Source: Dermatophagoides farinae
Lineage: Eukaryota; Arthropoda; Arachnida; Sarcoptiformes; Pyroglyphidae
Direction of reading: 5' to 3'
DNA: 64,000 bases
NCBI RefSeq assembly: GCF_024713945.1
Contig: NC_134677.1
Span: 2,421,001 to 2,485,000, forward strand
The stretch's first letter is position 1; each line of letters opens with the position of its first letter. The translations under genes and the position numbers were made by a program. The notes beneath the pieces are model-generated. The model searched no databases and was not told where the DNA came from. It worked only from the letters and a program-made list of their open reading frames with translations. Below, piece after piece: positions 22,089 through 45,318 of this stretch.

Positions 22089-23399
22089 TCATTTTTTTCG
22101 ACTAAATTTTCGTTTGGATTTTGATAAATCATTATTGCCATTATTGCAATCATCACTTTGACTTGTTGTTGAATCTTGCTCTTGTAGCTGTTCATTAATA
22201 CTTAATGATTGTTGTAATGTTTGTATCATACGTAATAATTGAAGTAGATGATGTGCATTATTCAAATCGATCATTACTTTACCATCCTGCATAACTTGTG
22301 GTTGAAATTCTGGTGTTGATTGTTGTTGCTGCTGTTTTTGAATCATCATCTGTTGTGTTGACAGTTGTTGTTGTTGTTGTTGTGGCATGGACTGCTTTTT
22401 ACCTTTTGAATAAATATGTTCATAATCATCAGGTGCAATGAGAGCTGTTGGTGCATCGGATGGAAATTCAAGAGCATTATTCTGTTGTTGTTGCTGTTGT
22501 GGCTGTTTGCGTGATAGAACTTTTTTCTGGAATAATGTTGTCTTTGATGGTTGATCTTTTTGTCGTTTATAAATGTGTTCATAATCTTCGGGTGCGATTA
22601 ATGCTGTTGGAGCATCCGATGGAAATTCCAGAGCTTCCACTTTTTTCGGTTGTATTGTTGCTGCTTTTTTTGTTTGAATCTGTTGCCGTTTATAAATATG
22701 TTCATAATCTTCCGGTGCAATCAATACTGTCGGTGCGTTGGAATCGATTTGTAAATCTTTCACCACTTTTTTAGCAGCAGTATAAATATGTTCATAGTCT
22801 TCGGGTGCGATTAATGCTGTAGGTCCTGCCGATTCCAATAATGGCAATAGTGCTTTTGCCTGTACTTTTACCGATTGTTGTTGTTTCTTCATTAATTGTT
22901 CTTTTCTTTTAGAAAAAATATGTTCATAATCATCCGGAGCTATTAATGCGGTTGGCTCGTCTGAACGTATTTGTAATGGAGTTTTTGCTTTAGTCGTTAT
23001 GATTTTCTTTTTATTTGAAAAAATATGTGCATAATCTTCAGGCGCTATCAATGCAGTCGGTTCGTCTGAACGTATTTTCAATGTTGTTTTATCTTCTTTA
23101 GCTTTTACTTTGTTTTTTGTTTGTGTTTTAGCTGAGTAAATATGTTCATAATCCTCTGGTGCAATAATAGCTGTCGGTGCATCCGATGGTATTCTTTGTG
23201 TTCGCTGTTCTTTGGGTCGTGTTCGATTTTGCTTAGACGTAAAAATATGTTCATAATCGTTTGGAGCAATCAATGCGGTTGGTGCATCCGACGGTATACG
23301 TGGCGAAATTGGTTTTCGTTTTTCTTTATCTTTTTCACTTCGACGGCCACCACCTCCTCCTCTACGAGCTTTCGATCTTCGTCGTTCACTATGAGCCAT
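22089..23399 (-). CDS. Basic protein with eight PTALIAPEDYEHIY-type repeats
   Basis: I do not recognise this family. It is a single-exon frame of 436 aa; the start is the ATG at 23399, since the codons just upstream in frame offer no ATG. The N-terminus is strongly basic with a Gly run (RRSKARRGGGGGRR) and could be a nuclear or nucleic-acid-binding tail. Eight copies of a motif with consensus SDAPTALIAPEDYEHIY begin near residues 37, 72, 111, 146, 190, 220, 261 and 313, separated by 13-36 residues of Lys/Gln-rich, variable linker. The conserved core is PTxLIAPxDYxHI(Y/F). The C-terminal third is Gln-rich with a possible helix (about 375-405, NAHHLLQLLRMIQTLQQ) and a basic end. There is no signal peptide or membrane segment. 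The layout suggests a multivalent scaffold carrying a docking motif, possibly with Tyr phosphosites; this is inference. Confidence 0.8.
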   Translation of the reverse strand: MAHSERRRSKARRGGGGGRRSEKDKEKRKPISPRIPSDAPTALIAPNDYEHIFTSKQNRTRPKEQRTQRIPSDAPTAIIAPEDYEHIYSAKTQTKNKVKAKEDKTTLKIRSDEPTALIAPEDYAHIFSNKKKIITTKAKTPLQIRSDEPTALIAPDDYEHIFSKRKEQLMKKQQQSVKVQAKALLPLLESAGPTALIAPEDYEHIYTAAKKVVKDLQIDSNAPTVLIAPEDYEHIYKRQQIQTKKAATIQPKKVEALEFPSDAPTALIAPEDYEHIYKRQKDQPSKTTLFQKKVLSRKQPQQQQQQNNALEFPSDAPTALIAPDDYEHIYSKGKKQSMPQQQQQQLSTQQMMIQKQQQQQSTPEFQPQVMQDGKVMIDLNNAHHLLQLLRMIQTLQQSLSINEQLQEQDSTTSQSDDCNNGNNDLSKSKRKFSRKK

Positions 23400-23764
23400 T
23401 TCAAACAAATCGATCCGAAATAATAATATTTATGGCATAATATTTATATTTTGAATGTAGTTAGTAACATATTGAATTTTTCATTATTTATTGTTAAAGT
23501 TTTAATTAATTTTAATTAATAACCAATAATTGAATTTCTTTCGGAAAAAAGAATCCCTTTTTTATACATTTGCCATTAATAATACTAGATGTCGTTAGTG
23601 TATCAGAAGAAAAAGTTTTATTCACAAAAAAGCGGTAAATTCAAATTTATAAATTTAATTGCTTATTTTACAAAAAAAAAATCAAATTTAAAGTGGTGTT
23701 AATGTTATAACATTGTTGTATGACTAGAGATGATTTCGGATAAACAAATAGTCAATAATCTTGT

Positions 23765-41591: not shown

Positions 41592-44500
41592 ATGAACATC
41601 CGTAAAGTGAAAGGAAATTTTGATCGAATTTTCGACAAAACATTAACCGATCTTGTCCGTGGTATTCGTAATAACAAAGAAAATGAGGTACATTATCCAT
41701 GATTTTTGTTCATTATTCAATCCATTTCTTTTTTCTCTATACAGACAAAATACATTCAACAATGTATTGAAGAAATTAAAGAAGAATTACGACATGATAG
41801 TCTTTTTATTAAAGCTAATGCAATTTCCAAATTGACTTATGTAAGTAAAACGTTTCATTTGCATTTTTTTTGTTCATCTCTAATTTATCATTGAAATCAT
41901 ACATAGCTACAAATGTTAGGTTATGATATAAGCTGGTCGGCTTTCAACATCATCGAAGTGATGAGTTCGACAAAATTTTCACACAAAAGAATCGGTTACC
42001 TAGCTGCATCGCAATCATTTCATGAGAATACCGAAGTGATGATGTTGACGACAAACATGATCCGTAAGGATTTAAATTCACAAAACATGTACGATGCTGG
42101 ATGTGCAATGAGTGGCCTAGCATGTTTTGTCACTGCCGACATAAGCCGAGATTTAGCCAATGATGTGATGACATTGTTGAGTTCAACAAAACCATATCTA
42201 CGTAAAAAAGCAATATTGTTGATGTATAAAATTTTTCTCAAATTTCCTGAGGCACTTAAACCAGCATTCCCAAGATTGAAGGAAAAATTAGAGGATCCCG
42301 ATCCAGGTGTTCAATCAGCAGCTGTCAATGTTATCTGTGAGCTTGCAAGAAAAAATCCAAAAAATTATCTTTCATTGGCACCTGTATTCTTCAAATTAAT
42401 GACCAATTCAACAAACAACTGGATGCTTATCAAAATCATCAAATTGGTATTTTTCTATTGTCCATTTTCGAATTCTTTATTATTTGATATTTAATTGAAT
42501 AGTGTAATACGTTTAAAAAATTAGACATTAGGGTTTATTATTATGCTCTATTAATTCAATTTTTGATCCATTTTTTTTGCTATCAAAAAGTTTGGAGTAA
42601 TGACTAAATATGAGCCATTGCTTGGTATCAAGCTAAGCAATCCTCTCATATCGCTGATTCGAAGGTAAAAAAATTCATCTCACATTCGATAATTATTCAA
42701 TGAAAATTGCATCTATTATTATACCCGTAGATTTGTTTTTTTTTAATTTCCTTGCACACTTGATTCAATTAAATATCAAATAATGATAGGTCATTGCATT
42801 CATTTTTTTTTAAATTTTTTTTGTTAATTTTTTTTTCTTTTGTTTTTCATTTATTTTCATTTCGTTCCATTTTTATCCATTAGTTCGGTGCACTTACACC
42901 ACTTGAACCTAGACTAGGAAAAAAATTAATAGAACCTTTAACGAATTTGATACACAGGTAATCACATTTGTTTTTAGTTGATTTTTATTTTCATAATTTA
43001 AGCATGTGAAAAATTTTTGAATACAAATTCTAATCAATCAATGAAATTTAATTAGCACATCGGCCATGTCATTATTATATGAATGCATCAATACTGTGAT
43101 TGCCGTTTTGATTTCAATCTCATCTGGTCTGCCCAATCACAATGCATCCATACAATTGTGTGTACAAAAATTGCGAATATTAATTGAAGATTCGGATCAA
43201 AATCTTAAATATCTTGGATTATTGGCTATGAATAAGATATTGAAAACTCATCCAAAAAGTGTACAAAGTCATAAAGATTTGGTACTCGCATGTTTGGATG
43301 ATAAAGATGAATCGATTCGTCTTCGTGCACTCGATCTTCTTTACGGTATGGTTACCAAAAAGAATTTAATGGAAATCGTACAGAAATTGGTCAAAAATGT
43401 TACCGAAGGTCAGATTGGGAATAAATTTCGTGATGAATTAATCCTCAAATTGATTGAAATTTGTTCACAAAGCGATTATCAATTTATTGTCAATTTTGAA
43501 TGGTTCGTATTTTTTTGTGCAAATCGTGATATGTATGATAATGACTGTTTTGAATCTATCAGGTATTTAAGTGTTTTGATTGATCTTGCACGTGTCGATG
43601 GTGGCACCATTCATGGTGTTTTGATTGCACAGCAAATATTAGATGTCTCTATTCGTGTAGATGCTATTCGGTCGTTTGCAACCGAACAAATGGTATAAAT
43701 TAACAATTTTTATTATCATTTTCTAATCATTATAATTTTTTTCAGTTCATTTTATTGGAAAATTCTTCTCTATTCATGAATAATTCCTCAGTCTGTGAAG
43801 TGCTATATGCAGCTGCCTGGATATGTGGTGAATTTGCCGAGTAAGTTTTCAATATGAATTTTAATTGATTTTTTTAAGTTAATCTTACAAATATCAAATC
43901 TTTGTTTTTTCAACAGTTATTTGCCTGACAAAGAAAAAACAATTCGAAATTTGTTATCCATTGATAATTTTCAGCCACATATCATAGCAGTTTTTATTCA
44001 AAATGCATCTAAAATATTTTCCAAACTAGCAGCTGATCCGAATTGTAATTCGACCAAAACATACAATCTTTGTTCCGAAATTGAAGAACTAATTAAACCG
44101 TATTTAAAAAATCAAAATTTGGAAATACAAGAACGCGCAACAACATTATCCGAAATAATAGCTATCGTTAAATCAATGAAAAATGAAAATATCGGTAAAC
44201 AGGCGAATTTATTGATGAATGATTCGAACGAACATTCAGAGGAAATGGCTAATGGTGAAACGAATGGCAATGAATCTAATGTGATGATTGATCTACAATC
44301 ATTTTATTATGCTTATCCATTGAATCCGGTTGCTGCAAAAGCACAACGTAAAGTTCCAATACCAGTCGGTTTAGATTTGGATACACTATTCGATTTGCCT
44401 GAAAGTGAATATGAATCTGATGATTACAATGATGATTATGAAAAAGTTATTCATTTAGTTGATGATGAACAAGATGGTGTAGAATCGTCAGATGAATCGG

Positions 44501-45318
44501 ATAAAAGACACCAGAAGAATAATGACAATGAACAATCGAGAAGATTTGAACAGGAAAATAATCCAAATTATTTAAGGACAACAAAATCGAAGCAAACAAT
44601 TAAAAAATCTAAACGAAAATCAAATAAACACGATGAGAATTTGAATGAAAACGTCGAGGACGCAGAAGAAAATGAAACATACTTGCATGAATCATCTTCA
44701 GCCAAACAAAAAGCTCTCATTCCTGGATTAACCTCATCAGAAAAATATTTAATCAAAATGAAAAAGACGGATAATGTGAAAAAAGATGATGGTAAATCTA
44801 AAAAGAAAACACCAAAGAAAAAGAATACAAAAATAAATGTCATTGAAGATAATGAAGATGATGAAGAGATTGACAATAAAATTTCAATTCGAGCATTAGA
44901 AATGCCCGAAGGTGTCGATCTGAATGACAATGATGAAGAGGAAGAAGACTCCTTCAAATCAACATCTGATCCACATAAAGCTTTAGCCAAAGTGAATCTA
45001 GATGATGTGATTAATGATTTGAATAAAATGCGAAACAAAAAATCGGATTTGAAAATCATTGAATCGACGGAAAAAGCTAGTAAAAAGAAAAAATCAAGCA
45101 AAAAATCTGTCAAAACTTCTGTGGTTGATGATTTGATAACCGGAAAGAAAGTGGTTAAAGTAGCTAAAGCTAAAAAAACTAATAAAAAGAATGACGATTC
45201 GAGCAATAAAGTGAACGATAGCCCAGTCAAGATGAAGCCAAAAAAATCTAATAAAACAAAGAAAACAGAAGATTCGAAAAATCGTGATGAATACGAAGAA
45301 ACGTTGGACAAAATTTAA
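41592..45318 (+). CDS. AP3D1: AP-3 adaptor complex delta subunit
   Basis: Large subunit of the AP-3 coat that sorts cargo to lysosomes, pigment granules and synaptic vesicles (Drosophila garnet). Exons: 41592-41687, 41745-41840, 41907-42446, one of two alternative 74-bp exons (42591-42664 or 42884-42957), 43056-43502, 43563-43692, 43746-43840, 43917-45318; 959 aa. The adaptin trunk is strongly conserved: MNIRKVKGNFDRIFDKTLTD at the start, then GYDISWSAFNIIEVMSS, ILIEDSDQNLKYLGLLAMNK, DDKDESIRLRALDLLYGMV and VLYAAAWICGEFAD. NPVAAKAQRKVPIPVGLDLD marks the hinge, followed by an acidic/Lys-rich segment. The frame ends at DKI, with no sign of the C-terminal appendage found in the roughly 1150-residue human protein. 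Intron 43503-43562 is 60 bp, in frame and without stop. The gene converges with the carboxypeptidase gene; the stops are 86 bp apart. Confidence 0.92.
42591..42664 (+). other. AP3D1: AP3D1 alternative exon 4a
   Basis: Flanked by AG (after a T-rich tract) and GTAAAA. It encodes 24 codons plus two bases, beginning FGVMTKYEPLLGIKL and ending ISLIR. It aligns without gaps to exon 4b, with 14 of 25 residues identical counting the shared Ser at the junction. It is the less conserved version compared with AP-3 delta of other animals. Confidence 0.8.
42884..42957 (+). other. AP3D1: AP3D1 alternative exon 4b (canonical)
   Basis: Flanked by TTAG and GTAATC, 74 bp, same phase as exon 4a. It encodes FGALTPLEPRLGKKL followed by IEPLTNLIH, essentially identical to the AP-3 delta trunk sequence I recall from vertebrates, so it is the ancestral form. 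Confidence 0.9.

Follow-up and report, generated by a model that had tools for sequence, protein, structure and literature searches.

Tandem mutually exclusive exons are known, for example, from the Dscam, Mhc and 14-3-3 zeta genes of insects, and a frame-breaking exon length lets decay enforce their exclusivity (accessible part of PMC6071210). In the docking/selector arrangement treated in the same text, a left docker pairs with an element located before the second exon, and the first exon is thereby looped out and skipped. Tandem-duplicated exons as such are common; a 2002 estimate, quoted in the accessible part of PMC9013439, places them in about 10% of animal genes.

Here we describe a candidate pair of this kind in the AP-3 delta gene of the mite Dermatophagoides farinae, situated in a stretch of 64,000 nucleotides that we refer to as the window. 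Diversity of adaptor complexes is usually credited to paralogous subunits. If our assumptions are true, a large subunit present once in the genome gains its second form by an exon swap instead. We suggest that two neighboring exons, designated 4a and 4b (Table 1), are probably tandem duplicates used in a mutually exclusive manner, with exclusivity enforced by the reading frame and with 4b set as the default by an RNA stem.

The AP-3 delta gene and its exon pair

The identity of the gene follows from comparison of exon 3 with AP-3 delta-1 chains of PDB (E 5.8e-100). AP-3 delta chains are the best PDB matches of the mite gene, and the protein spliced in silico contains both the adaptin trunk (Pfam Adaptin_N, 466 bits with 4b and 450 bits with 4a) and the AP3D1 domain (55 bits). 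Borders of exons 6-8 were picked by frame. A scan of viral contigs (viral_contigs) for AP-3 delta turned up no relative. The whole genome (62.4 Mb, 22 contigs) was searched as well. Among the best candidates scored, exon 3 matched its own locus and three further places at 23-31% identity, and the 4a peptide joined to the start of exon 5 matched solely its own locus at E of 10 or lower. The protein stops at residue 959, approximately 110 residues past the AP3D1 match. This tail (plus strand, 44900-45318 of the window) is rich in Lys and Asp/Glu. No ear family is present among the eight Pfam matches of the 4b isoform, and the mammalian-type delta ear seems to be missing from the predicted mite protein.

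Table 1. Positions of the AP-3 delta gene, its exons and the intronic inverted repeat within the window
Feature	Positions	Strand	Details
AP-3 delta gene, coding part	41592..45318	+	in-silico splicing; PDB AP-3 delta-1 chains; Pfam Adaptin_N, AP3D1
AP-3 delta coding exons, first part	41592-41687, 41745-41840, 41907-42446, then 4a or 4b	+	
AP-3 delta coding exons, rest	43056-43502, 43563-43692, 43746-43840, 43917-45318 (stop included)	+	
Exon 3, common upstream exon	41907..42446	+	donor TTG|GTATTT
Left arm of perfect 22-nt inverted repeat, in intron 3-4a	42479..42500	+	
Exon 4a, diverged version, 74 bp, FGVMTKYEPLLGIKLSNPLISLIR	42591..42664	+	acceptor AAAAAG|TTTGG, donor CGAAG|GTAAAA
Right arm of perfect 22-nt inverted repeat, in intron 4a-4b	42763..42784	+	
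Exon 4b, conserved version, 74 bp, FGALTPLEPRLGKKLIEPLTNLIH	42884..42957	+	acceptor CATTAG|TTCGG, donor CACAG|GTAATC
Exon 5, common downstream exon	43056..43502	+	acceptor AATTAG|CACATC

Exon coordinates, equal lengths of 74 bp, shared phase and 14 identical residues out of 25, all given in the original prediction, were reproduced exactly. Both exons start in phase 0 and end with AG, and the first C of exon 5 completes a Ser codon in either case. The resulting peptides, FGVMTKYEPLLGIKLSNPLISLIR(S) and FGALTPLEPRLGKKLIEPLTNLIH(S), align without gaps; on the nucleotide level, 38 of 74 positions are identical. When spliced in silico, a message with 4a or 4b alone stays open for 959 aa. Inclusion of both exons leads to a stop after 279 aa with four exon junctions downstream, and omission of both to a stop after 252 aa with three junctions downstream. 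The earlier claim that exactly one exon must be used thus holds for the full-length protein; it does not extend to a demonstration that both get used. The sequence thus gives good support to a mutually exclusive architecture.

Introns of the cassette (144, 219 and 98 bp) are longer than the remaining five introns of the gene (53-76 bp). Because the internal one reaches 219 bp, a purely steric block is unlikely. Judged by eye, the donors do not resemble the U12 type. Both exons are preceded by T-rich stretches (42554-42582 and 42798-42826) that are 79% alike over 29 nt, with spacing of 244; they might be what is left of the intron that was duplicated, or mere low complexity.

How exceptional the pair is was assessed in a sample of 264 kb, consisting of the window and 20 loci of 10 kb, both strands of which were scanned for neighboring homologous open frames. 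Positions 22.0-24.5 kb of the window, which code for a tandem-repeat protein, were dropped before counting. The scan gave 25 hits, and 4a/4b was the 12th by score. Judged by eye, the other hits consist of low-complexity sequence, one exactly repeated piece of DNA in tandem, or domains that recur within one frame. A single hit could not be assigned to any of these classes (locus L013, minus strand, 8671, score 51): two adjacent frames, 269 bp apart, with a common QTNKxKxFSP-like stretch. Several further observations were made in the sample. On the minus strand of the window, at 22400-23400, a PTALIAPEDYEHIY-like peptide recurs many times in tandem within a reading frame, neighboring copies being about 90-160 bp apart. 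At L017:4326-4510, DNA is repeated exactly in tandem with a spacing of 118 bp, and this repeat is partly open on either strand. A gene of the Blo-t-5 family at locus L007 codes for 111 residues in a row that agree fully with PDB chains named Der f 21, as expected for D. farinae, the American house dust mite, or a species very close to it.

The original prediction described the splice borders of both exons as good. All of them are canonical GT-AG, and this part of the description stands; the acceptor of 4a (AAAAAG), having no pyrimidine at -3, is not clearly good. Splice-site matrices were built ab initio from the 264 kb in three versions that yield 17, 21 and 29 introns, many of them plainly false. 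Introns of AP-3 delta were not recovered by the 29-intron matrix, nor are they among the introns listed for the 17- and 21-intron ones. One rough matrix assigns the 4a acceptor a score of 3.19, which is less than 4b (5.56) and more than exons 3 and 5 (-0.3 and -1.9), and another one a score of -0.75, the lowest of the five acceptors. Because of this conflict, the matrices decide nothing. In the predicted fold of the cassette, unpaired values are 0.13 for the 4a donor and 0.46 for the 4b donor; with a donor that is paired for the most part, 4a could be hardly ever used.

An inverted repeat around exon 4a

Exon 4a is flanked by two arms of an inverted repeat, 22 nt long and 100% complementary, that the original prediction had not noticed. 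A count of exact inverted repeats of at least 18 nt with a gap of 3-600 gave 131 in the 264 kb; 130 of them are simple repeats, as set by our own filter, and the remaining one is that around 4a. Non-simple inverted repeats of at least 12, 14 and 16 nt amount to 133, 29 and 9, respectively, including the one around 4a. Extrapolating these counts, we would expect a 22-mer in a cassette of 600 bp well under once per thousand. With two mismatches at most, the 22-mer occurs at five places of the genome, namely the two exact arms and three places with two mismatches. A transposon origin of the arms, which was considered, is not supported by this distribution.

Introns 3-4a and 4a-4b are predicted to pair with -47.8 kcal/mol, compared to -25.0 (sd 3.95) for shuffled sequences, none out of 300 being as good. 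Predicted pair probabilities are 0.81-1.0 along the length of the stem, and the fold of the whole cassette has z of -3.46 (0 of 20 shuffles as good). The AU-rich duplex is predicted to weaken with heat: its energy is -42.3 kcal/mol at 10 C and -26.2 kcal/mol at 37 C. A stem that would loop out 4b was also sought. By eye, intron 4b-5 seemed to offer such a second stem; it was dropped, because its pairing falls within the range of shuffles both for the internal intron (32 of 300 as good) and for the right arm taken by itself (48 of 300). The same applies to the left arm with the remainder of its intron (126 of 300). As no significant pairing favors 4a, we limit the claim to a one-sided loop-out, not a two-way switch. 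Nothing relevant was found by a bacterial promoter and terminator scan of the cassette, by Rfam at gathering scores or by a tRNA scan of the window.

The pair of exons might be real and the inverted repeat still have no relation to exon choice. The arms would then be a neutral inverted duplication, or they would promote formation of a circular RNA from exon 4a. Flanking inverted repeats are known to promote back-splicing, and the lack of a competing stem would suit such an explanation. An exon of 74 nt is nevertheless small for a circle, and arms that are very rare in the 264-kb sample flank exactly the alternative exon. We consider an unrelated repeat rather unlikely, and it is the strongest of the competitors to stem-guided choice.

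Probable coding constraint on exon 4a

The original prediction regarded 4b as the conserved version. This is confirmed by 25 of 25 residues equal to the delta-1 chains 9c5c, 9c58, 9rtw and 9rtx of PDB, which we take to be mammalian; the chain 7p3x is presumably yeast Apl5. Identity of 4a to the delta-1 chains is 14/25. The proposed change of PRLGKK to LLGIKL was out of register, as PRLGKK in fact pairs with PLLGIK. Divergence was further said to lie mainly on the charged surface. In about five of the 11 changes, at least one of the two residues is charged or is His (P6K, R10L, K13I, E17N and H24R).

The two exons differ at 16 of 17.8 synonymous sites and at 20 of 54.2 nonsynonymous ones, which indicates that the duplication is old. 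If as many differences per codon position as observed are scattered randomly on 4b, the observed similarity without any stop appears with a frequency of 5e-5 (20,000 runs). Because the silent differences could stem from 4b alone, a harder null was simulated, with silent sites of 4b randomised and 4a left free; only runs that differed at 17-19 of the 50 first and second codon positions were kept (18 in the real pair). With composition and rates assumed and a single genome at hand, this neutral decay gives a stop-free frame with 14 or more identities in 0.8-3.5% of runs. The proportion drops to 0.1-1.0% when both splice dinucleotides have to be intact and no indels occur, and to 0.002-0.31% when 5-10% indels per substitution are added to the dinucleotide requirement (0.002-0.1% at 10%). 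Depending on the assumptions, a relic as intact as 4a thus arises about once in 100 to once in 40,000 runs. Further, 4a retains 7 of the 8 exon-encoded positions common to 4b and the yeast delta chain, compared to 6 of the 16 others (one-sided Fisher p 0.027, with one distant sequence as reference). We see in this moderate evidence that 4a is translated.

The same data bear on the possibility that 4a is merely the relic of a former duplication, no longer spliced in and not yet broken. Its 11 differences from the PDB delta-1 chains over 25 residues, where 4b has none, its weak-looking acceptor and its mostly paired donor would all be in accord with such a fate, and the mildest null still produces an intact relic in 1% of runs. 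The other nulls, however, give 0.3% to 0.002%, and substitutions in 4a avoid positions common with the yeast chain. Moreover, the rare perfect stem sits precisely around 4a, and a dead exon needs none. We therefore regard a relic as unlikely, clearly more so than an unrelated repeat. Another possibility is a poison exon: 4a would be joined to 4b so that the frame is lost and nonsense-mediated decay reduces the amount of AP-3 delta, with no second protein involved. This agrees with the stop and four downstream junctions of the double-inclusion message and with an internal intron long enough (219 bp) for splicing. We find it very improbable all the same: for a poison exon, a matching phase, the same length, retained residues and constraint on the protein are all unnecessary, and 4a displays the first three together with moderate evidence of the last.

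Proposed mechanism and comparison with known systems

A possible course of events under the reading we prefer, mutually exclusive exons with a stem-set default, is as follows. Tandem duplication of the exon for AP-3 delta trunk residues 245-269 would have given rise to 4a and 4b, which would serve as mutually exclusive alternatives, each full-length message holding exactly one. The 22-nt stem would loop out 4a and draw exon 3 near to 4b, making 4b the default. There are two conceivable situations in which 4a might be chosen. Firstly, the stem may be unformed or opened by a protein. Secondly, 4a and its donor may be transcribed, and spliced, ahead of the right arm. Messages containing both exons or neither would presumably be cleared by nonsense-mediated decay. 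The 4a isoform would then be an AP-3 whose delta trunk is locally altered in its surface or packing.

A bolder version of this model is a coat switched by RNA structure. The 22-bp stem would set 4b, and once it is opened, whether a regulator, the speed of transcription or temperature is responsible, a mite-specific AP-3 with a different trunk segment would become available to a certain cell type, stage or lysosome-related organelle. Temperature is listed because the AU-rich duplex weakens on warming. We offer this version tentatively; it is conceivable and falls well short of being our expectation.

What the swapped segment does in AP-3 can be approached through published mutants. In the accessible part of PMC13178560, which deals with the AP3:ARF1 coat, the mutated AP-3 delta residues are F77, M110 and L111; H157, K159, R163 and R187; E313, D314 and D316; and K342, K371, K378, K379 and K386. 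All of these lie outside 245-269, so they lend no direct support to an altered coat surface. Such an alteration by 4a is possible, and changed trunk packing or an unknown partner is as likely. Placement of exon 4 in a named AP-3 interface was rejected for want of support in the accessible part of PMC13178560, as was its placement in a hinge with regard to that of PMC8591511. The latter source describes an extra loop of yeast delta at aa 399-421; exon 4 aligns to approximately 260-284 of the yeast delta chain, away from this loop. Residues 245-269, which the mutants available from PMC13178560 leave untouched, may be a tunable part of the trunk.

Among the matches listed in open-licence literature, mite splicing papers included, there was no AP-3 delta exon pair. 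Term searches in the accessible parts of the respective articles found no "adaptin" in PMC9741552 and PMC3303723 and no "adaptor" in PMC9741552 and PMC9013439. Within these matches the AP-3 delta pair is new; tandem exon duplication itself is already known. If true, it would show in compact form, and in an animal other than an insect, how an RNA stem can guide the choice of an exon; the swap would affect a segment identical residue for residue between mite 4b and the PDB delta-1 chains. The unchanged 4b, the affected coat subunit and the rare stem add to its interest.

Like AP3D1 and yeast Apl5, the mite protein possesses Adaptin_N and AP3D1 domains; unlike them, its gene carries a second version of residues 245-269, and the mammalian ear seems to be absent. 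With respect to the docking/selector types in the accessible part of PMC6071210, the mite cassette differs in that the search for a pairing by which 4b would be looped out or 4a activated gave nothing significant. It resembles the left-docker type (Dscam exon 6) and the bidirectional one (srp) in that an element of the upstream intron is predicted to pair before 4b and loop out 4a, which is half of either scheme. Finally, in comparison with Dscam, Mhc and 14-3-3 zeta as treated there, our case concerns a mite and the trunk of a vesicle-coat adaptor and involves just two exons, both of them putatively used; what it has in common with them are adjacent exons that are homologous, agree in length and phase, and would enter a message one at a time.
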